Origin: an uncultured Rhodospirillales bacterium
GTDB lineage: Bacteria; Pseudomonadota; Alphaproteobacteria; Azospirillales; Azospirillaceae
Assembly: GCA_903920145.1 (NCBI GenBank)
Contig: CAIXKV010000081.1
Coordinates: forward strand, 1-50,543
Reading direction: 5' to 3'
DNA: 50,543 nt
Position numbers and translations under genes: made by a program. Shown piece after piece: positions 29,179-45,478 of this stretch (the first letter of the stretch is position 1; each line of letters begins with the position of its first letter). The notes below the pieces were generated by a model. The model searched no databases, was not told where the DNA came from, and worked only from the letters and a program-made list of their open reading frames with translations.

Positions 29179-30351
29179 CTAATCGCGCGCCGTATCCGCG
29201 CGGGCCGGACGAAGATAACGGAGCATGCCGCCGGTTGCCGTGCGATATTGGTGGAAATAAAGTGGGCGACCTTCGCGGATCGGCTCGCAAACCGGCAATT
29301 CGGTATGCAGCTTGCTATCGCGCCACTCGGCTAACCAATCGTCAACACGGCCCTTGGCCGCAGTGAAAAAGCCCTGTTCCGCAGCAATCCGCAGGATGCC
29401 CAAGAACGTCGTTCCGGGCAAGAAGGCGTCGCCAGCCACCGGCAACAGGTTGAAAGCCCGATCATTGGCCAGCAGTAACCGATCATCCCCATCGAAAATC
29501 ATCACCCCTCCGGGGAAGGAGGCGATGGAGTCGGTGAGAATGGCCAGCATCCGCCCCGCAAACTGAGTCGACTCGAGTTCCTCGGTGACATCGGTGCTCA
29601 CCGTCCGATAACCGAGAAATTTTCCAGATCGGGAATAGACCGGCTTACCACTCAGACGAAGAATCCGATCCGGCGCAGCGGCCAACCTCACGGCCAGATT
29701 GCGATAGGGCTCCTGTCGTTCTACACATTGGAGATATTGAGCTATTTTATCGCGATCCTCGTCGGGTGCCAGCAAGTCCACCCAGGTCCGTCCGATAAAA
29801 CTCTCCGGGTCGATCTGCATGAGACCGCGCAACCGCTCGGAAACCCAGGTGATCCGCTGGGTCGGATCGGTCTCGCTGAACCAGTCTCCGGCGATTTCGG
29901 CAAAGTCCCGGAAGCGTTGCTCGCTGCGGGCTAAACGCTCGGCGGCGCGATGGCGTTCGACGGCATATTGCAGCGCCCGCACCACATGGCGGCCCTGGTC
30001 TTCGCCCTTTAAGAGAAACCCTTGGGCTCCAACCTTCATCGCCCGATGAGCCAGCAACGTATCGTCGGCAGGCGTCATCACGATGACCGGCAGCGTCGAG
30101 TCCTGCAACAAACCACGCAGGGTATCGATGCCTTCGGAATCCGGCAAATTCAAGTCAGCCAGGATAACGTCGTGGCGACGCGGCCTCAAAAGCGCCTTGC
30201 ATTCGGCCAACGTACCGACGGTGGTGAGGACAAACTCCCCTCCCCCTTCGTGCTCCAGAACACTTGACAGCAGATCGACGAACGAAGCGTCGGAATCAAC
30301 CACCAGAACGCGCGTCGGACCGGCGGTGGGAACCGATCTCAAGCTGGGCAT
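29179..30351 (-). CDS. Response regulator with two PAS domains and no output domain
   Basis: A 390-residue protein. The receiver domain (residues 14-130) has phosphoacceptor D66 (ILADLNLPD) and the acidic pair VVDSD at 18-21. A short coiled coil leads to PAS1 (about 145-260) and PAS2 (about 275-370). No GGDEF, kinase or DNA-binding domain follows. It may act as an adaptor, or partner with another protein. It lies 205 bases downstream of cheR on the same strand; whether it belongs to the chemosensory operon is open. The start has GGGA 7-10 bases upstream. The minus-strand stretch between it and cheR is AT-rich with no gene. Confidence 0.85.
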   Translation of the reverse strand: MPSLRSVPTAGPTRVLVVDSDASFVDLLSSVLEHEGGGEFVLTTVGTLAECKALLRPRRHDVILADLNLPDSEGIDTLRGLLQDSTLPVIVMTPADDTLLAHRAMKVGAQGFLLKGEDQGRHVVRALQYAVERHRAAERLARSEQRFRDFAEIAGDWFSETDPTQRITWVSERLRGLMQIDPESFIGRTWVDLLAPDEDRDKIAQYLQCVERQEPYRNLAVRLAAAPDRILRLSGKPVYSRSGKFLGYRTVSTDVTEELESTQFAGRMLAILTDSIASFPGGVMIFDGDDRLLLANDRAFNLLPVAGDAFLPGTTFLGILRIAAEQGFFTAAKGRVDDWLAEWRDSKLHTELPVCEPIREGRPLYFHQYRTATGGMLRYLRPARADTARD

Positions 30352-30556: not shown

Positions 30557-31618
30557 CTAAACTTTCTGGTAGATAACCGTCGACGGTCCCCAATGCGCCC
30601 TGAACAAATTGGGATCGTCGGGAACATCGGTGGGGCCAAACACCGCAAAACCACCTGGATTCAGCAGCGTGTGAATCAGCTTAAAGACTCGACGACGACC
30701 GCCCGCATCAAAATAAATCAGCACATTCCGGCAGAACACGATATCGGCCTGCTCCAGCGGCGGCTTGTCTCCCAACAGGTTGAATTGCTGGAACCGAACA
30801 AAACGCCGAATATCAGGATGAACCTGCCAGGATGTCCCGCCTTCGATCGATGAATCGCCCTTTCCAGTGCGCTCAAAAAAACGCCAGCATTGTTGCGGCA
30901 GATTGCGGAACGGCCCCAACCCGAACTCGTGATAAACGGCGGCCTGGGCGGTGCGAATCGCTTGGCGAGACAGGTCCGACCCCACCACCTCGATGGTCCA
31001 CGGACGCAAAGTCCGAACATGGCCGGCCGCATCGATCACGGCTTCGCCCGCAGCGGCCAAGGTGTCCACCGCCAGCATGGCCAGGGAATAGGCTTCCTCG
31101 CCGGTCGAGCAGGCCGCCGACCATAAACGCAAAACGGGCCGGTCTTGGCCTTTTCGCTCGGCAATGACACGCGCCATGGCCTGCCGGCGCACGAAATCGA
31201 ACTGACCAGGATCCCGCATAAAGTAAGTTTCGTGAACGGTCAGCATCTCGACAAAAGACAACCATTCGGGATCGTTTGAATCAAGTCCCGCCAGACGCTC
31301 CATCCATGGACCAAGCTTGTCCGGGGGGTACGCTCCGGCAATCTTCTCTAACTTAGCGCGCACCGAGCCATTGATCGCGATGCCAACCCGACGACACACC
31401 TCGGCTGACAGCCATGAAACGGCATCGGCCAGCAACGGCGATGCCCCACGCGCAGGCGGAACACTCGCCGCCGGAGTCCGGCTAGACGATGCCGCCGTCG
31501 ACGACGATGATGATCTTGGCGTCAACAAGATGGCCCGCATCGCGTCCAACTGCTGCTGTAATGCCAGACCGGGGGGTTGAGCCAAAGGCCGGGAACTGAC
31601 CATGGTTGCGACTGGCAC
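30557..31618 (-). CDS. cheR: Chemoreceptor methyltransferase CheR
   Basis: About 353 residues. After a Ser/Ala-rich leader (residues 1-60), the CheR N-terminal helical domain and Rossmann methyltransferase follow. Key motifs are VHETYFMRD, SAM-binding WSAACSTGEEAYS, VGSDLS and FCRNVLIYF. CheR methylates Glu residues of the receptor signalling helices using SAM and is the adaptation partner of CheB at 35.5 kb. It is the last gene of the che operon and nearly overlaps cheW. GTG at 31618 is preferred because AAGGAG, inside the cheW end, lies 8 bases upstream. A GTG at 31627 (overlapping the cheW TGA) and ATG at 31603 are alternatives. Confidence 0.94.
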   Translation of the reverse strand: MPVATMVSSRPLAQPPGLALQQQLDAMRAILLTPRSSSSSTAASSSRTPAASVPPARGASPLLADAVSWLSAEVCRRVGIAINGSVRAKLEKIAGAYPPDKLGPWMERLAGLDSNDPEWLSFVEMLTVHETYFMRDPGQFDFVRRQAMARVIAERKGQDRPVLRLWSAACSTGEEAYSLAMLAVDTLAAAGEAVIDAAGHVRTLRPWTIEVVGSDLSRQAIRTAQAAVYHEFGLGPFRNLPQQCWRFFERTGKGDSSIEGGTSWQVHPDIRRFVRFQQFNLLGDKPPLEQADIVFCRNVLIYFDAGGRRRVFKLIHTLLNPGGFAVFGPTDVPDDPNLFRAHWGPSTVIYQKV

Positions 31619-31623
31619 TCCCT

Positions 31624-32046
31624 TCACTCCTTGGCCCCAGACGATAAAAGCGTAAAGACCGCGCCCCGACGCAAACGCAACACCCCTGCCCGCCCATCGC
31701 CCTCCACCAAAAGACCGTCAAAAGCCTGCCCCAGGATTGACGGTAACGGCGGAAGCGGACGGAAGAGGGCATTCTCTAACCGAAGCATCGGCCCCGCGCC
31801 ATCCACATCGAGAACGATGGTGCCGTGATCCGGGTCTTCCAGCACCACGGCAACCGGACGAGGAGCCAGGTCGGCGCCTAAAACCTCTGAAAAATCGACA
31901 ACCGGAAGCGTCTGCCCGCGCCACACGCGATGACCGGGGCATTCCACCACTGCATTTCCATCCCGATTCGTCATCACGTCCCGAATGTCTCCACTGTTGA
32001 TCAGCAGAGTATACTCCGCGGCCTTGACCTGAAGATAGGCACTCAT
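31624..32046 (-). CDS. CheW-like adaptor protein (divergent)
   Basis: A 140-residue protein with one CheW-like (SH3-like) domain: LQVKAAEYTLLINSGDIRDV at the start, RGQTLPVVDFSEVLG in the middle. It couples receptors to CheA. It is diverged from canonical CheW and is shorter at the N-terminus. It sits 18 bases after cheA and overlaps the cheR region at its stop; GGAGG precedes its ATG. The second, larger CheW-type protein of the operon is at 36.7 kb, so the array has two kinds of adaptor. Confidence 0.87.
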   Translation of the reverse strand: MSAYLQVKAAEYTLLINSGDIRDVMTNRDGNAVVECPGHRVWRGQTLPVVDFSEVLGADLAPRPVAVVLEDPDHGTIVLDVDGAGPMLRLENALFRPLPPLPSILGQAFDGLLVEGDGRAGVLRLRRGAVFTLLSSGAKE

Positions 32047-35072: not shown

Positions 35073-35483
35073 TCACTGTGCCGCTAACCCGCACGCCTTG
35101 CGAATGGCTTTAACGATGTCGCTACCCTTTTTGGCGGCAATGTCCAGGCTCATGGACCCCGACGGCTTGGCGATCACGTCAAAAGCCCCTAAACGACGCG
35201 CCTCCATCGCCTGGGTCGAGCCGACTTGAGCCACGGATGAAATGATGATCACCTTGGCCCGACTGGACAGCTTCAGCCGCTTCAGGGCCTCCAAGCCATT
35301 CATCTCGGGCATTTCGATGTCCAGCAGAACCACGTCGGGAGCCAGCTTGCCAACTTTCTCCAAAGCCACTTTGCCGTTTTCGGCTTCTCCAACCACCGCG
35401 AGGTCAGGATCGGCCTTCACGATGTCCGCAATCAAAGTCCGCATCATGAACGAGTCATCAACAACCATTACATTTTTTGCCAT
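35073..35483 (-). CDS. Stand-alone receiver protein resembling a CheB receiver
   Basis: A 136-residue REC domain. Acidic pocket D9-D10 and phosphoacceptor D55 (LLDIEMPEMNG), with Lys in GAFDVIAKPSG. The C-terminal wording (FDVIAKPSGSMSLDI) is that of CheB receivers, where the linker to the methylesterase begins, rather than of CheY. It may be the phosphate sink or the output protein of this array. It lies between cheB and cheA, with GAGGAG 6 bases before its ATG. It probably arose by duplication of the CheB receiver. Calling it CheY would be functional guesswork. Confidence 0.88.
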   Translation of the reverse strand: MAKNVMVVDDSFMMRTLIADIVKADPDLAVVGEAENGKVALEKVGKLAPDVVLLDIEMPEMNGLEALKRLKLSSRAKVIIISSVAQVGSTQAMEARRLGAFDVIAKPSGSMSLDIAAKKGSDIVKAIRKACGLAAQ

Positions 35484-35536: not shown

Positions 35537-36655
35537 CTATCTGTTACACCACTCTCGTAACTTTGCCCCTATGTCATCAATCGACAGGACAAAGGACGCT
35601 AAACCACCGTCAATCACCGCTTGGGGCATGCCGCCGATCACGCAGGATGCCGGCGTTTGCACCAAAACCGGCAAGTCGCGATCGGTAAAACGCCGACACC
35701 CCCGCGTTCCATCATTCCCCATCCCGGTTAGAACCACAGCCACCGGGGATTCGGTGACGCGCAGGGCGGATTCAAAGAGAACATCGGCGTTGGGATGAAT
35801 CGGCGCGTCAGGAACCACCCGCACATTGAGCAGCTTGTGCCCACCGATGCCATACCCCACCAGACCATCCTTACCGCCGGGAATGATCGCCACCAGACCG
35901 GGAGTCAGGACCATGCCATCTTCACCTTCGCGGACATCAAGGCCGGTTTCCTCTTTAAGATGCTCGGCAAAGCTGGCGGTGTAGTAGGGCGGCATGTGCT
36001 GCGCCACCACCATCGGGCACCGCAACGGCCCGCACGCCTTAAGCAAACCGGGAAACGTCTTGGGTCCGCCGGTGGACACGCCCACCACCACCAAATCCAC
36101 GGACCGAGGCGCCTTAGCCACGCGCGCGCGGGGCGTCGCCGCGCTGGCCGAAGAGGTGTTGAAAAGAGAGGCCACCGCAGCGGAGGCTGCCGAAGAAGCC
36201 GAAACGGACGCCGAAGAAGGGGCAAGACCAGCCCACGCCCCCATCGATAGCAGAGGACGACGGCCCCAATAGCGGATCTTCTCCCGCAATTCGCGGTCAA
36301 CCTGAACAATATCAAGCTGCACGAAGCTCGATGACTTGGAAATAAAATCAACGGCGCCGGCTTCCAACGCCTCCAAGGTTACCTTGGCGCCCTTTTGCGT
36401 GAGACTGCTCAACATAATCACCGGCGTTGCGCGCTCGGCCATGATCATGCGGGTTGCGCTAACCCCGTCCAGGTCTGGCATCTCCACATCCATGGTGATC
36501 ACGTCCGGCTTCAACTCGCGAGCCATGTTGACGGCTGCTACGCCGTTGCGCGCCTCACCGACGACTTGAATCTCGGGATCAGACGCCACCATCTTACGGA
36601 CGGCGATGCGCATGAACCCAGAATCGTCGGCAATCAAGAGCCGGATGGGCTTCAT
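35537..36655 (-). CDS. cheB: Chemotaxis methylesterase CheB
   Basis: A 372-residue protein with an N-terminal receiver (D56 in TMDVEMPDLDG) and a C-terminal methylesterase. The catalytic triad motifs are GVSTGGP (Ser), VAQHMP (His) and TGMGNDG (Asp). A long Ser/Ala-rich linker separates them (about 130-185). It removes methyl groups from receptors when phosphorylated by CheA. The start at 36655 overlaps the stop of the triple-CheW gene by four bases (ATGA), showing translational coupling; a longer frame to 36883 is not needed. Followed by the receiver gene after 53 bases. Confidence 0.95.
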   Translation of the reverse strand: MKPIRLLIADDSGFMRIAVRKMVASDPEIQVVGEARNGVAAVNMARELKPDVITMDVEMPDLDGVSATRMIMAERATPVIMLSSLTQKGAKVTLEALEAGAVDFISKSSSFVQLDIVQVDRELREKIRYWGRRPLLSMGAWAGLAPSSASVSASSAASAAVASLFNTSSASAATPRARVAKAPRSVDLVVVGVSTGGPKTFPGLLKACGPLRCPMVVAQHMPPYYTASFAEHLKEETGLDVREGEDGMVLTPGLVAIIPGGKDGLVGYGIGGHKLLNVRVVPDAPIHPNADVLFESALRVTESPVAVVLTGMGNDGTRGCRRFTDRDLPVLVQTPASCVIGGMPQAVIDGGLASFVLSIDDIGAKLREWCNR

Positions 36656-38139
36656 GAGGCCACAAGCTCCCTGGTTGCCCCGGCGTCTTCGGAAACCCCC
36701 TCTTCGTCTTCCAGAACATTCACGTCCAGGATATTGACCAACCGATTCCCAACCCGCCCAACCCCACATAATAAGCGCCCCGACAGCGCCCCACCAGAGA
36801 CCCCAGCATGAGCAGAGGCGCCGAGAATCGAGGCTTCTGGAACCCGAACCAACCGCTCCACGGCCTCGACCGCCAGAGCCCACAAGCCAAAAGCATCGGA
36901 GCGATCGGTTCGCACCACCACATAAGCCCCGGCCCTATCCCCCAGCGCGGCGCCGAACGCTAACCCCAAATCAGCCACAGGCAACACGCGCCCGCCGATT
37001 TCGGTCATGCCCACCCGTAGCCCTATCGCCTGCGGCAAGCCGGTGGGTGGAGAATAATTGGCAACGCGCTCAATCCGGCCAATATCGATGGCGCAGGTCT
37101 CGGAGCCCATGCGGACCAACAGCATCCTCCGTTCCTTCTCGGGAACCAGAACCGACAGATCCGCACCGTCGCGAATTCGGGGTAAAAAGGCCCGTAACCG
37201 GCGGAAGGATGACTCCGAGATCAGGCCATCCAGCTCCAACAGAATGGTCACCGTGCCATCGGCACCGATCAAAAAGCTGTCAATGCCAGCGGCGGGTTCG
37301 CTGGTCGCTTCCCGCCGGCTGATCGGAAATCGCCGAATCCCCAACAAAGCATCGCACCGAAACACCACAGGTAAGCCACGGGCGGTTGCCGCAACCATGC
37401 TGGCCCCGGCCCCATCGGCGGGCACCCCCAGTAGCCGTGCCAACGAAATCACCAAGCGCGGCTGACCTCGTAGCACTGAAATTCCAGCAACGCAGTCTGG
37501 AGCATCGGGTAACGGCGTCAGGGCCCTATCCACATAAACTTCCAGAACCCTGAGCAAAGGAAAAGCGTAACGCTCGCCACCGACAATCACCGCCAGAGTG
37601 GAAATCACCTCTTCCCGAGCCCGACGAAGAGCGGCGGTGTCGCCAACCTCCATCTCCCCCAACACCACCGAAGGCGAGCGTTGACCGAACGATCCGGCGG
37701 CCACCCCATCCAAGCCGATGCGCTCGGGACGGAGCAGGAAAACCGATTGATCCTGGTAACGAAAGACCCCGGCCAGTCGCTCCCGATGACCGTCCCCGTC
37801 AAGCCCAAGGTCGCCGTTGTCATCCAGGGTTTCGACCGAGGCAATATCGGTCTCGTCGACCCGCAGCATCCGCCACGTGGCGCCAACGCGTAGCGCGCAT
37901 TCCGTATCCCCGACGGCCAGAACCACCAGTTGGCCTTCCCCCTGAGTCTCTCCGGGCAGCATCAACAGCGCCCCCAAATCGATCTGAGGAAGAACCCGTC
38001 CTCCCAACGCCACCAACCCATCGACATACCGGGGAACGAACGGTAACGGCGTGACTTCGGCCACATCATCCACATGCCGGATGACATCCGCCGGTAGAGC
38101 ATAGGGCCGTCCCCGTACTTCGAACACCAGGACTCGCAT
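36652..38139 (-). CDS. Triple CheW-domain scaffold protein
   Basis: A 495-residue protein made of three CheW-like domains in a row: about residues 1-125 (VLVFEVRGRPYALPA; ALGGRVLPQIDLG), about 170-300 (LAVIVGGERYAFPL; LRGQPRLVISLARLLG) and about 330-490 (MLLVRMGSETCAIDI; IGGRVLPVADLG). Normal CheW has one domain of about 140-160 residues. A protein with three could link several receptors and CheA in one array, acting as a scaffold. It is translationally coupled to cheB and lies 82 bases downstream of an MCP gene. ATG at 38139 starts the first domain directly. No domain of another type is fused. The domain count is clear; the scaffold role is inferred. Confidence 0.88.
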   Translation of the reverse strand: MRVLVFEVRGRPYALPADVIRHVDDVAEVTPLPFVPRYVDGLVALGGRVLPQIDLGALLMLPGETQGEGQLVVLAVGDTECALRVGATWRMLRVDETDIASVETLDDNGDLGLDGDGHRERLAGVFRYQDQSVFLLRPERIGLDGVAAGSFGQRSPSVVLGEMEVGDTAALRRAREEVISTLAVIVGGERYAFPLLRVLEVYVDRALTPLPDAPDCVAGISVLRGQPRLVISLARLLGVPADGAGASMVAATARGLPVVFRCDALLGIRRFPISRREATSEPAAGIDSFLIGADGTVTILLELDGLISESSFRRLRAFLPRIRDGADLSVLVPEKERRMLLVRMGSETCAIDIGRIERVANYSPPTGLPQAIGLRVGMTEIGGRVLPVADLGLAFGAALGDRAGAYVVVRTDRSDAFGLWALAVEAVERLVRVPEASILGASAHAGVSGGALSGRLLCGVGRVGNRLVNILDVNVLEDEEGVSEDAGATRELVAS

Positions 38140-38221: not shown

Positions 38222-39895
38222 TCAGAATGTAAACCGTTCGACTTCCGTTCGGGTCTGGCCGGTGAGACGGGCCAACTCAACCACGGTGGCTGCCACCTGT
38301 TCCGAAGCAGCGGCGTTGGTTTCGCCGATCCGCGACAGCTCCTCGACCCGAGTCCGAATGGTCTCTACCGACGTCGTCTGCAAGGCCATGGCCTCGGCGA
38401 TGGCGGCGGCGGTACGGTCGGTCTCACTCACACCGCTGGCGATCCGATCGATGCTTTCCCCAACCGCTTGAGCACTGTCAACACCGCGTGTGGCATCCAC
38501 CGACGCCTGACGGATCAGCGTGTTGATCTCGTCCACAGATTTCGCCGAATGATCCGCCAGCTTACCAACCTCCTCAGCCACCACGGCGAATCCTTTGCCG
38601 GCTTCGCCAGCGCGGGCCGCCTCGATTGCCGCATTCAAAGAGAGCATATTGGTTTGGTTGGCGATGCGACCAATCACGTTGGTGATCTTTGAAATGCTGC
38701 GGGTGTTATTGGCAATGGCGTTGACCGACGAAACCATGCCCGAAACATTCTCGCTTCCCTCTGCCACCAAGGCTGCCGCATGCCGGGCTTGCTCGCTGGA
38801 CAGTTTGGCGCTCGACGACACCTCTTCAATGGCATGAGCCGATTGCCGAACGCCCGCCAGAATATGCTTCACCGCATTGAACTGCCCTTGGGCCCCATCG
38901 GAAATCTGACCGATGGCGGTGCTGACTTCACTGGTCGCCACGGCAACCTGCTTAACGTTCCCCATCACCGCCCGCATCGCCTGGGACAACCCATCAAGAG
39001 ACTGGTTCAGATTATCCTTCAGACATCCCGCATCCCCTCTGGCCTCGACCGAGACCCGAGCCGACAGGTCGCGCGCGGCAACACGTGCCATCACCCCGTT
39101 GATCGCACGAACAACGGCGTCAATCTCAGACATCAAGGCATTGAATGCCTCCGCTGTGCGGCCAAACTCGTCCCGGCGACGAACGGCAACCCGTCGAGAT
39201 AGATCCCCGGACTGTTGAATATCATCGATCCCTGAACGCAGATGACCCAGCTCTCGCAAAACGCCCTGGGCCAGCACCGCCGCAATGCCCATCCCCAATA
39301 ACGCCGTCAACAGCATGGCCACCAGCACCGCCGTTTTCGTGGCCGAGCCGCTTTCTGCGCCCTGCTGCGCTTCCTCCTTGCCTCCAGCTTCATTCAGCGC
39401 CAGAACCGCATCAACCGTGGTTTCCAGCCGTTTGAAAGTCGTGGCACCGTCAGTCACAAAATAGTTAACGGCATCAACTGGCTTTTTCTGACGAAACACG
39501 TCTTGGGTGGCCAGTCCCGATTGACGCACCTGGGCCCAATCCTTCACCATCTGATCGAGCAAGCGCCGTTCTTCGGCAGATCGCACCAACAGCGTATAAG
39601 TTCGAAGAGCGGCATCGACCTCTCCCGCCACCCTGGCCATCCGGTCTATTTGGGTCGCCGCTTCGTCGTCAGTGCGCGACAACAACATCCGCGCCTCGGC
39701 ACGCCGGTAGACGTCAAACTGCCGAACCAAGCGACTAAGCGCGGTCGCACTGGGTAACCAGCTCGTGGCGACCTCGTCAAGATGACCCGTGACGACGCCC
39801 AACTGGGAAATGGCGAAGGCACCCTGCCCAACGGAAAGCAGCACCATCAGACCAAAGGCAAGAAACAGCCTGGTACGAACGGAAATATCCCTCAT
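38222..39895 (-). CDS. Methyl-accepting chemotaxis protein, 4HB-type sensor
   Basis: A 557-residue receptor. TM1 lies about residues 9-29, a periplasmic helical (4HB_MCP-like) sensor about 30-183, TM2 about 186-209, then HAMP and the MA domain. The tip reads [23 protein letters not shown]. It ends in ...EVERFTF with no CheR-binding pentapeptide. GGGAG lies 10 bases before ATG 39895; an upstream ATG at 39916 has no such site. It is the third of three receptor genes in the operon, 70 bases after the Cache receptor. Its signalling half is very similar to theirs. Confidence 0.92.
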
Positions 39896-39965
39896 GAGTC
39901 TGCTACTCCCTGCCAATGTTGAGCCCTATACCGATCTCGCCTCAACACGCGCGTCAAATTTCGCC

Positions 39966-41654
39966 TTAAAACCGAAAGGCATCGACTTTTGCCCGAGTCT
40001 GATCCGCCAAACGCGCCAGTTCAATCATCGTGACCGTGACCTGTTCGGCGGCGGCAGCATTCCCCTCACCAATCCGGGACAGGTCTTCAATATTCGACCC
40101 GATGGTCGCCACCGCAGCCGACTGCTGGGCCATCGCCGCCGCAATCGCCGCCGCCATCCGATCGCTTTCCTCGGTCGTCCCGACGATACGTGTCATCCCG
40201 TCATCCACTGATTGCGCCAGTTGTACACCGCGCATGGTCTCGGCAAATGCTTTTTCATTATGCGACGAGATCTCGGTGGCTGAATGGCTGGTCTGTTCAG
40301 CGAGCTTGCCCACGGCTTCGGCCACCACGGCAAAGCCCTTACCGGCCTCGCCGGCACGGGCCGCCTCAATCGAAGCGTTCAAAGACAAAAGATTGGTTTG
40401 GGCCGCCACACGCTCGATGGTTTCGGCGATCCGCGCCACCTCTAACGCATTGTCGGAAATAGTATTGGTTAGATTCAGTAAAGCCTCCACCGTTTCCCGG
40501 CTATCACTCACCGCCTCCGCCGCTTCCCGAGCACAACTGCTAGAGACCTTCGCTTTTTCCGAGGCATCTTCGATAGATTGGGACGTCCGTCGAACGCTGG
40601 CTGAAATTTGCCGCAGAACCCCCACTTGCGTCTGCGCGCCATCGGCAATCTGACCAATGGCCAAATTCGCTTGATCCGTAGCTGTGGCCATTTGACGAAT
40701 ATTGCCTTTGACTGCGGCTAGGAAACTGGCCAAAGACTCGAGAGAACGGTTAACGCTGTCCTTGATATCATTGACCAACCGACTGGGGGCGTCCGCAGCC
40801 ACCCGAAGCGATAGGTCACCTGCCGCAACAGCCGACATGACCACCTTCATATCAGTGAGCACCGGCTCAAGGTCATCAAGAAACCCATTCAGAGCCAACC
40901 CGGCCTGCCCCAATTCATCCTGACTGTTAATTCTGGCACGAATGGACAGGTCTCCGGTCGCCTCGATGGCCAAGAGGGCTTGCTTCAAATCAACCGCAGC
41001 TTTGACGACTCTGGCACCAATGATCCATGACGCAGCCCCGACGATCAGCAGAGTCACAGCCAAGAGGATAAAGATACCCATGGACTGGCGACGGGCCTCA
41101 CTATGAACATCGTCAACATAAACGCCAGAACCAATAATCCAGCCCCAGCGATCATACAGTTTGACAAAAGAAACCTTATCAACAGGGGTCTGATCGTTGC
41201 CCGGTCGCCACCACTTATAATCAACAAACCCGGCCCCAGATTTTCGCACCAATCCAGCCATTTCAATAAAGAGATGTTTACCATCCTTATCGACATAATC
41301 ACTCAAGTCTTTTCCGTTCATCTCGGGTTTAAGAGGATGCATGATCATCCGTGGATGAAGATCATTAACCCACAAATAATTGCCATCCTGATAACGCATC
41401 GATCCGATCACTGCTAAGGCAGCCCGACGCGCCTCGTCTTCGGATAATTCTCCCCGAGTGGCCTTATCACCAAAAGCTGCGACAACACTATAGCCGCTTT
41501 CGACCAGCGCCTTCACTTCGCTTCGGTGAGAGTTCATCAAGCTTGAATCCAGTTGCCCGACTGCAATCACCGCAACCAGGATCAACATCACAAAGACGAT
41601 GGAAAATTGCACAATCAGCTTTGCGTGCAATCCTCTAAGGTTTAATTTAATCAT
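39966..41654 (-). CDS. Methyl-accepting chemotaxis protein with single Cache sensor
   Basis: A 562-residue receptor. TM1 about residues 13-33, then a periplasmic single Cache (sCache_2) domain of about 150 residues ([33 protein letters not shown]), TM2 about 190-212, HAMP, and the MA domain with tip [19 protein letters not shown]. sCache_2 domains usually bind small organic acids or similar ligands; the ligand here is unknown. AGGA lies 9 bases before the ATG. Second receptor of the operon; no C-terminal pentapeptide. Confidence 0.92.
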
Positions 41655-41709: not shown

Positions 41710-43839
41710 CTACCGCTCCTGAATTGGCGATTGAGACAGAGCTGCTACAGCTTCCTTGTCAGATCTTAAAATATGATTTTTCAACCAATCACCCAAAAAA
41801 GTCATGACTTCATTGCTCATATTGGTCTTACCGCTTTCAAACCGTGACAACAAAGAGCGAAGTTCCCGGACAAACTCGGTATGGGAACGTTTCTGACTGG
41901 GTAAGGCCGTGGGATTGCCAGCCCGCCAAATCTGCTCTTCCCGAGAAAAATGCTCCTCGGTGTATTTCACCAGAGCATGCAGAATGGCGCCAAGACTGGC
42001 GCTCCCCCGTCCCGAACGCATGGCCTCATGCAAATCATTGACGCAACGAACCAATCCCTTATGGTCGGCATCGATCACCGGATGCCCAACCAACAAACTA
42101 TCCGACCAAGGTAGAAAATCTTTTTTGACTGTATAAGACTCTGCTGCCTTTGCTTCAACGGCATTGGTTGCATATGATAACTTAAAGCGACCGATTTCAG
42201 CCTTGGTATGATCCGCCAGTCGCGCCAATTCAACCATGGTTGCCGTCACTTCTTCAGAGGCGGCAGCATTGGTTTCACCAATATGGCTCAGATCATCAAC
42301 GCTTCCTCGAATCTCTTCAATCGCTGCGGCCTGTTGTTGCATGGCCGTAGCAATCGCGGCGGCCATCTGATCACTTTCGCTGACCACCTTAGCGATACGG
42401 TCGATATTTTCACCAACCACCCGCGCCGTTTCAACTCCTGTTACAGTTTCCGCGCCGGCAATTTCAATCAAAGAGTTTATTTCTGATACCGAACGACCAG
42501 AATGCTCGGCAAGTTTGCCGACTTCCTCGGCGACGACGGCAAAACCTTTTCCGGCTTCACCGGCCCGTGCCGCCTCGATAGCAGCATTGAGAGACAACAT
42601 GTTGGTTTGGCTGGCAATCCGATCAATAACGCCGGTAATTTTCGAAATATCCCGCGCCCGGTCGGAAATCGCGTGCACCGATTGAACCATTCCCGCGACA
42701 TTATCCCGCCCATCACTGACCAGGGATGCGGCCTCTCGAGCGTGACCACTGGAGGCCTGGGCATTAACCGAAACCTCTTCGATGGCATGCGCCGACTGTT
42801 TAATACCAACAGCAATCCGCTTAACCGCATTCAACTGATTCAAAGCACCATCAGAAATCTGCCCAACGGCGGTACTAACTTGTCCTGTTGCTACGGCAAC
42901 TTGGGAAACATTATCCAATACAGCCCGAAGAGCCGTGCTTAAAGATGTCAAAGAGCGATTGACGTCGTCTTTAATATCCCGCACCAGTCTGCTTGCGGCT
43001 TCGGCACGAACGGTGCGCGTCAAATCGCCAGACGCCACTGCCGTCATCACCGCCCTCAAATCGTTTAAAACCAACTCCATATTGGCGAGAAAACCGTTCA
43101 AGGCACGCCCGGTTTCGCTGAACTCGTCATTGGCGGAAATGTCGGCTCGCAGCGAAAGATCGCCGGTCCGCTCGATCTCCGCCATCAAGTGACGCATAGC
43201 GAGTAATGGCCGCGTGATCCAACGCACCAACCAAATCCCCAGCCCCAGAGTAATGACCAAAGACAGTAAAATAACAGCAATAATGGCCCACTTGGTTTGC
43301 TCTTGAACTGCTTGCACGTCGCCACCTTGTGCTGACGCTTCAGCATTCGCTAAAGCAACGGCCTCATCAATGCGATCGCCGACAATATTATAAGATGCTT
43401 CCTCTTGTTTATAAAGAGCAATAGCCTCTACTGTTTTTTTCTGAAGCGCCAATGACAGCACTTTGTTGCTTGATACTTTGTAATCAGCCCAAGCCTGACT
43501 AAAATCATGAAAAATTTCACGATCTTTATTGCTAATCAATAGCTTTTGCCAGCGTGGTAATTTTTCATCAACGCTGCTGACTAATTTTGCAAATTCAGAA
43601 GAGACTTCCGTAAATTCCTTCTCACTTCCCGAGAAAATAGCTTCCGCCTCAAAAATACGCATATTCATAGTATCGTCGTTCAGCCCGCCAGCGACGTTAA
43701 TTTCCGGCAGCGAACTGACAAGGATTTTCCCGGTGTAGGTTCCAATCAGCCCGACCTGGCTCGTGGCGAAAAGGCCCTGCCCCACCACCACAATTAAGAC
43801 CCCCAGCAACATCAGGGTTAATTTCGCCTTGATCGACAC
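41710..43839 (-). CDS. Methyl-accepting chemotaxis protein with C-terminal hemerythrin domain
   Basis: A 709-residue receptor. TM1 about residues 8-26, helical periplasmic sensor, TM2 about 183-205, HAMP, MA domain (tip [18 protein letters not shown]) and a cytoplasmic hemerythrin domain at about 595-705. The general plan matches DcrH-type oxygen receptors. Ligands visible are His in DADH, HFSRE (His, Glu), H653 and HILRSD (His, Asp). The position i-4 to H653, normally the first His of HxxxH, is Gln649, so one diiron ligand seems replaced. GTG at 43839 was chosen because GGGGAGG lies about 6 bases upstream; ATG at 43989 would add a Cys-rich tail before TM1. First gene of the che operon. Confidence 0.91.
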
Positions 43840-44209
43840 CGCCCATTCCTCCCCGCTGTCCGTCACCTGACGGTGCATAAACGCCTTAAGCTTCGCCTCA
43901 CCGCCACAAGCCCGCCATCGGCACCGCAGCCCCGCAAGCGTCGTTTGACAGGATTCTTCTAAATTTTCAATCTCTTTTGAAGTATGCACGGTCAGGCCCT
44001 TACGCTCCTAAAGGTCCTGACGGCCTGGATGATAATCCAAACATTCAAACAAATAACGCTTAGACACGCATTTGCCAAGTGAGGCTATTTTATAAATACA
44101 AAATGCTTCATTAGCTCATTACAAAAACCAACACAAGACGCACAAACTCTATTTTGTTTAAATATAATAAAATACTTAATGTAATAATAAGACATCTAAA
44201 AATAGGAAA
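43840..44209. other. Intergenic region upstream of the chemosensory operon
   Basis: A 370-base gap between the RsbU-like gene and the first MCP, both read leftward. The part nearest the RsbU gene (44080-44205) is strongly AT-rich. Arms GTCAGG...CCTGAC near 43991-44022 form an imperfect hairpin. A promoter for the MCP-Hr to cheR operon is expected here; no clear sigma-28 or sigma-54 site was found. No gene is seen. Confidence 0.45.
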
Positions 44210-45478
44210 TCATCCCCATGAAATCCAAATTGCAGTCAAATCATCGTGATATGGTCCTCGGCGAGGTGCTGTAAAAGTATCAATTAAAGAATTAAGTGGA
44301 ATTTTATCATTTAATACATTTTTTACCAATGTTTCTAATCCATCTTCTTTGAGAACGGTCCCCATATGGTCGGGAGATTCGGTCAGAACATCACTATAAA
44401 GAAACAAAAAACCCTTGGCTCCTAATGATAGATAGCGATTATCGTACTGCTCTCCCGACCAACAACCAAGATAAACACCACTACCATCAATAATTTTTAC
44501 AACATTATTCTCTCCTCCTAAGAATGGATTTGGTTGTGCCGCAGAAGCATACGTTAAAGTGTGAGAATGGGAATCGATAACACCATAAAAAGCTGTACAA
44601 TATTGTCCGACCGGCAATATTTCGCACAAATCACTATTGAGATTGGTCAACATAGTGCCAGGGTCAGCCTGTTCCGCTTTGCTGCGCCGAGAAACCAAGG
44701 CATCAAATCGAAATGCATTAATAGCTGCCGCGATACCATGACCAGAAAAATCCGCAACCAAAATACCGATACGGTTCTCGTCAATTTCATGAAGCGACCA
44801 AAAGTCACCGCCGATTTCATCGCAGCTCTCAAAACGAGAGTTAATGGTTAATCCGCGCTGTTTTGCGACTCGATCCACCCGCTCTGGCTTTGGAATTAAA
44901 GCCAATTGCATCGTCCGCGCTATTTCCAAATCCCGCTCGATGCGCTGGCGGAATTTTTTTAGCTCGGCAATCATCGCGCGACGTTCCAAATGATAACCTA
45001 AACGTGCAATCAATTCGCCGGGATTCACAGGTTTAGAAATAACATCGCTCGCCCCCGCCTGAAAGCAGCGCGCCCGCGTTTGATCCGAATGCGACATGGT
45101 TTGTAATACAATCGGAACATCGCGCCCAGCAGGCAGAGTCCGCAGTAACCGGCAGGTTTCAATCCCAGTTAATGATCCTAAATTAGTATCGAGGAGAATT
45201 AAATTAGCTCCGATTTCGCCTACACGATCAAGAACGTCTCGACCATCCTTGGCAAAAACCACATCAGTAACGCCAAACCAACTCAGAAAACGGGTTAATG
45301 TCTTACGGCTGAAAGGACTAGAATCGGCGATTAAGATACGACAGTCGTGCAGAGGCGCCACTAAATCAAGTCCATATAAAGATGCGCATCCTTGACTTGT
45401 TTTTTCCGCAACAGGTCGGATAGCCGTCTCCAATCCAGAAAAATTATTTGATATTTTTAGAAAATCGTCGCCGACCAT
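44210..45478 (-). CDS. RsbU-like response regulator with PP2C (SpoIIE) phosphatase
   Basis: A 422-residue protein. The N-terminal receiver (about residues 45-170) has phosphoacceptor D97 (LILLDTNLG). A coiled linker with the helical IERDLEIARTMQLALIP motif leads to the PP2C/SpoIIE phosphatase. Metal ligands are Asp in EIGGDFW, VADFSGHG and HDDLTAIW. Such proteins dephosphorylate STAS antagonists to free an anti-sigma kinase or other output. It is encoded 18 bases after the STAS gene, its likely substrate, and GGAG lies 7 bases before its ATG. No C-terminal kinase is fused, unlike Pseudomonas HsbR. It could be phosphorylated by the adjacent CheA; that is inference. Confidence 0.92.
   Translation of the reverse strand: MVGDDFLKISNNFSGLETAIRPVAEKTSQGCASLYGLDLVAPLHDCRILIADSSPFSRKTLTRFLSWFGVTDVVFAKDGRDVLDRVGEIGANLILLDTNLGSLTGIETCRLLRTLPAGRDVPIVLQTMSHSDQTRARCFQAGASDVISKPVNPGELIARLGYHLERRAMIAELKKFRQRIERDLEIARTMQLALIPKPERVDRVAKQRGLTINSRFESCDEIGGDFWSLHEIDENRIGILVADFSGHGIAAAINAFRFDALVSRRSKAEQADPGTMLTNLNSDLCEILPVGQYCTAFYGVIDSHSHTLTYASAAQPNPFLGGENNVVKIIDGSGVYLGCWSGEQYDNRYLSLGAKGFLFLYSDVLTESPDHMGTVLKEDGLETLVKNVLNDKIPLNSLIDTFTAPRRGPYHDDLTAIWISWG

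Follow-up and report, generated by a model that had tools for sequence, protein, structure and literature searches.

The window, that is, the whole stretch of 50,543 nucleotides analysed here from an uncultured Rhodospirillales bacterium, carries a complete membrane-receptor chemosensory cluster on its minus strand. The order of the genes is MCP (hemerythrin), MCP (sCache), MCP (4HB), cheWWW, cheB, receiver, cheA, small CheW, cheR and receiver-PAS-PAS (table 1), with the three MCP genes located directly upstream of cheWWW.

Table 1. Chemosensory genes of the window and domains of the triple CheW protein
Feature	Coordinates	Strand	Basis
MCP, 4HB and C-terminal hemerythrin domain, 2 TM	41710..43989	-	
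MCP, sCache_2, 2 TM	39966..41654	-	
MCP, 4HB, 2 TM	38222..39916	-	
Triple CheW adaptor (cheWWW), 495 aa	36652..38139	-	ORF and Pfam
CheW domain 1, H/G in place of the E38/R62 pair	37717..38133	-	
CheW domain 2, E38/R62 retained	37213..37596	-	
CheW domain 3, with R38, E60 and G62	36712..37125	-	
cheB, receiver and methylesterase, start overlapping the cheWWW stop	35537..36655	-	
Stand-alone receiver, CheY-like	35073..35483	-	
cheA, 994 aa: Hpt, long middle without Pfam match, weak H-kinase_dim, HATPase, P5	32065..35049	-	
Small divergent CheW-like protein, 24.7 bits	31624..32046	-	
cheR	30557..31627	-	
Receiver-PAS-PAS protein	29179..30351	-	

The triple CheW gene and its neighbours

The open reading frame of cheWWW runs on the minus strand from an ATG at 38139 to a stop at 36652 and encodes 495 residues. 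The plus strand of the same interval is full of stops, and no open frame spans that length. Pfam recognizes CheW (PF01584) three times in the protein (175.7 bits, E 4.6e-52) and no family besides it; in the whole-genome search, domains 1, 2 and 3 scored 68.0, 62.2 and 57.4 bits, respectively (curated cut-off 23.5). The product consists of three CheW domains and nothing else, as the preliminary description had stated.

The AlphaFold2 model, built from an alignment of 15 relatives, shows three beta-rich CheW-like domains (mean pLDDT 75), connected by flexible linkers at residues 145-174 and 323-333 (pLDDT < 50). With a pTM of 0.38, it describes the single domains and leaves their mutual arrangement unpredicted. 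The structural check proposed earlier for each domain supports the fold in domains 1 and 2, which match solved CheW structures with Z of ~19. The single-sequence model of domain 3 is poor, and its assignment to CheW is based on the profile score, the sequence match to Escherichia coli CheW and the same strand order.

The genes cheWWW and cheB overlap by ATGA (cheB ATG at 36655-36653, cheWWW TGA at 36654-36652), which renders the translational coupling claimed in the preliminary description plausible.

In the window CheA, ~450 residues between the Hpt and dimerization parts (residues ~105-560) have no Pfam match. At the place of the receiver-PAS-PAS gene, the cluster of the nearest relative has a receiver protein of equal size. 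The hemerythrin domain of the outermost MCP makes an oxygen or redox input possible. A receiver-SpoIIE phosphatase gene (44210-45478), upstream of the receptors, is either a possible output or a mere neighbor of the cluster.

Two kinds of clusters with a triple CheW

The combination of three CheW domains in a single protein was already known. Cluster I of Vibrio cholerae (class F9) encodes the “concatenated triple CheW” VC1402 (PMC7534058), the architecture has been termed unique to F9 (PMC9321776), and a “tripartate CheW” belongs to Che2 of R. centenum, a system for the synthesis of lateral flagella (PMC2890560). In a profile search, triple CheW proteins were found in at least 67 out of 82 genomes of the window's own order (9 of the 13 genera). 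Full-length representatives numbered at least ~10 in 337 genomes of the class and at least ~9 in 398 of the phylum, all of these being lower bounds, as the alignment searches score few candidates per genome. The preliminary description, which considered the protein unusual since most systems use a single-domain CheW, therefore overstated its rarity. What is new here is the non-F9 class context and the asymmetry of the domains.

The context of 45 triple-CheW loci, sorted with home-made profiles, divides them into two types. In the F9-like context, the triple CheW gene follows a soluble receptor of ~640 aa with no TM segment and a doubled signalling region. In the window-type context, each receptor is a transmembrane protein with a single signalling domain, and cheA usually encodes ~850-1070 aa. 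The small divergent CheW gene follows cheA in most of the complete clusters. This small protein often contains a proline-rich motif, e.g., LPPLP, ahead of a conserved F. Window-type members were found in five genomes of the window's own genus and in a second genus of the family (L063-L065, L150). Beyond the family, L145-L147 and L224-L226 belong to further families of the class, L141 to one genome from another part of the phylum, and G144 probably has a member as well (L227).

The kinase-P5 regions of CheA from 14 window-type systems form one clade (SH-aLRT 100), separate from four other CheAs of the window's own genome and from 12 F9-context CheAs, where F9 denotes an assignment through the DosM-like context and not through the MiST model.

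An alternative reading would place the window protein with VC1402 and R. centenum Che2, as the F9-type adaptor of a double-layered array in the cytoplasm. The triple CheW, a trait called unique to F9, is present in the window system, and F9-type clusters are common in its own order. However, the window cluster includes no soluble receptor with a double signalling domain (DosM-like), its adjacent MCPs have two TM segments and one signalling domain, its CheA falls outside the F9-context lineage (SH-aLRT 100), and its CheW domains lie apart from F9-context domains in the trees. F9 membership was rejected on the lack of DosM and on the different CheA clade. The F9-type reading is thus largely refuted and very improbable. 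Instead, we propose a membrane-receptor system distinct from class F9, in which the window protein serves as the main coupling adaptor. Orthology to R. centenum Che3 was also rejected, as gene order and CheA differ.

In comparison with known systems, the V. cholerae F9 cluster is likewise a full chemosensory cluster whose adaptor is one three-CheW protein, but it has the soluble double-ended receptor DosM, cytoplasmic sandwich arrays and a CheA of another clade. R. centenum Che2 shares the three CheW domains and belongs to the same order of bacteria, yet the locus taken as Che2 (L066 in G006) has the F9-type layout, unlike the window. Single-domain CheWs (E. coli, T. maritima) share the fold and PF01584, and the E38-R62 pair with domain 2 of the window; they differ in having one domain only, whereas domains 1 and 3 of the window are altered at this site. 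Multidomain use of CheW is also found in CheA with two CheW domains (F5) and in CheW-CheR-like proteins (F2), but there CheW is fused to kinase or methyltransferase-like parts and does not stand alone.

The window's own genome has a second window-type system, split over contigs: the triple CheW and a likely cognate MCP are on one (L021, G000:C27, 6344-7846), while CheA, a small CheW and CheR are on another (L023, G000:C171, 7442-12076). In a sister species (L059), these genes are found together. A third, strongly divergent protein of 487 aa (L022, G000:C152, 4564-6027) has two clear CheW matches plus a partial third one, and is flanked by MCP genes. In the same family, the adaptor of L208 (13096-14229) has two CheW domains, the last of which carries the R38/E60 signature of domain 3, and possibly represents a domain loss or an intermediate; the CheA of its cluster is 44% identical to the window CheA. 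The frames of L063 (8791-11301), L065 (9404-11854) and L224 (8822-11284) encode 816-836 aa, with ~350 extra residues ahead of the first CheW. Because a cheR frame overlaps this extra part, an upstream start in an open frame is more likely than a real extension.

Conservation and origin of the three domains

In E. coli CheW, the salt bridge E38-R62 is needed for the alignment of the receptor and kinase sites, as determined for CheW of class F7 only (PMC3828127). Among the F9-context proteins (n = 22), both residues are retained by the majority of domains at each of the three positions, whereas in the window type the pair is kept only in domain 2. In detail, R62 is found in 0/18 of the first domains. 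In domain 2, E38 is found in 14/18 and R62 in 15/18. In domain 3, R occupies site 38 in 16/18, an acidic residue occupies site 60 in 17/18, and R62 is found in 0/18. These counts are not independent, since one genus accounts for ten of the 18 systems and another for four. In the latter, domain 2 is without E38 in all four systems and without R62 in three. The pattern is unchanged in three later-fetched systems of another family (L224-L226) and only partial in G144. The R38 and acid 60 of domain 3 are possibly a charge-reversed pair.

The absence of the E38-R62 pair from domains 1 and 3 would also fit a protein in which domain 2 alone works and the other two are decaying copies kept by chance. 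Against this stands the retention of both over several families, each with conserved residues of its own, namely TpLPf.P..V.GL in domain 1 and R38 with E60 in domain 3, and all three domains still score as CheW. Decay is therefore rather unlikely.

In single-domain trees, positions 1, 2 and 3 of the window type each form their own clade across families (support 99/92, 98/95 and 99/90, respectively). The triplication therefore predates the divergence of the window-type systems. The F9-context domains are located elsewhere, near single CheWs. When the three positions are all constrained to be shared with F9, the tree is worse by 38.6 log units (AU p 0.004, LG+F+G4), and by 28.1 (p 0.014) when these topologies are evaluated under a mixture model. 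When a shared origin is tested for each position separately, significance is not reached (p 0.12-0.18). All these tests use a 133-column alignment, and the joint hypothesis is post hoc, framed after the trees were seen. For these reasons, two origins are only favored and not proven; the trees disfavor a three-position origin shared with F9.

Domain 2 was also considered as a mimic of CheA P5, to which it is weakly joined in domain trees (88 and 85/85). This was rejected, as 18/18 second domains score higher with the single-CheW than with the P5 profile.

Receptors and the proposed place of the adaptor in the array

The three MCPs of the window share the tip QTN[ML]LSLNA, and two of them are almost identical there. 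The same tip was found in three further, nonadjacent MCPs of the genome (C65, C58 and C23; 64-65% identity over the signalling domain) and in one MCP on C27. The genome has ~70 signalling-domain matches, and the other sampled MCPs with a readable tip have LALNA. Judging from these sequences, a receptor subfamily with six or more members seems to be dedicated to the window system.

The preliminary description also suggested that one protein might serve three cognate receptors. One domain for each neighboring receptor would agree with the three MCPs that adjoin cheWWW in the window and in its closest relatives. This is contradicted by relatives with a single adjacent MCP (L057, L146 and L224-L226), in which all three domains are kept, and by the tip signature shared among six MCPs of the genome, including the three nonadjacent ones. 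The idea was ruled out on these grounds and is hardly credible.

The best explanation, of middling confidence, is that the protein is the coupling adaptor of a non-F9 membrane system, in which domain 2 would couple and domains 1 and 3 would take other positions. With three CheW domains in fixed order and flexible linkers, one chain could fill three positions of the baseplate. Domain 2, proposed as the coupler because it alone keeps E38-R62, would act as an ordinary CheW between the receptor and CheA P5. Domains 1 and 3 would sit elsewhere in the CheA/CheW rings, or in rings made of CheW only, at positions that do not require coupling, and would stabilize the plate; a fit of these two domains to the altered tips of the dedicated receptors is also possible. 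The architecture, the gene cluster, the separate CheA clade, the conservation at each position and the tip signature of the receptors are observed; the binding partners, the ring positions and the division of labor among the domains are what we infer.

The preliminary description also raised the possibility of a special lattice. Concatenation might force one of another symmetry or receptor-trimer spacing, given that covalent linking could restrict the composition of the rings and that adaptor variants of T. denticola can accompany P2 arrays (PMC7666581). However, the baseplate of V. cholerae F9 consists of CheA and the triple CheW, and its arrays show ordinary 12-nm hexagonal packing (PMC3964821, PMC7534058). 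A changed in-plane lattice is thus not expected from concatenation alone, and we consider it quite improbable.

In conclusion, the triple CheW may have arisen at least twice, a scenario that we regard as evenly poised. The second lineage would be a membrane-receptor class without DosM, with functionally distinct domains, i.e., one coupling and two flanking for other baseplate contacts, and it would co-evolve with a receptor subfamily with tips of its own.

The literature covered here links the concatenated triple CheW to F9 and to its cytoplasmic arrays. A separate second lineage, whose receptors are transmembrane, shows that concatenation is not confined to arrays of this kind. Because nature has divided E38-R62 unevenly among the domains, the protein offers a handle on which positions of the baseplate need receptor-kinase coupling and which are needed for structure only, a question hard to approach with identical single CheW units.
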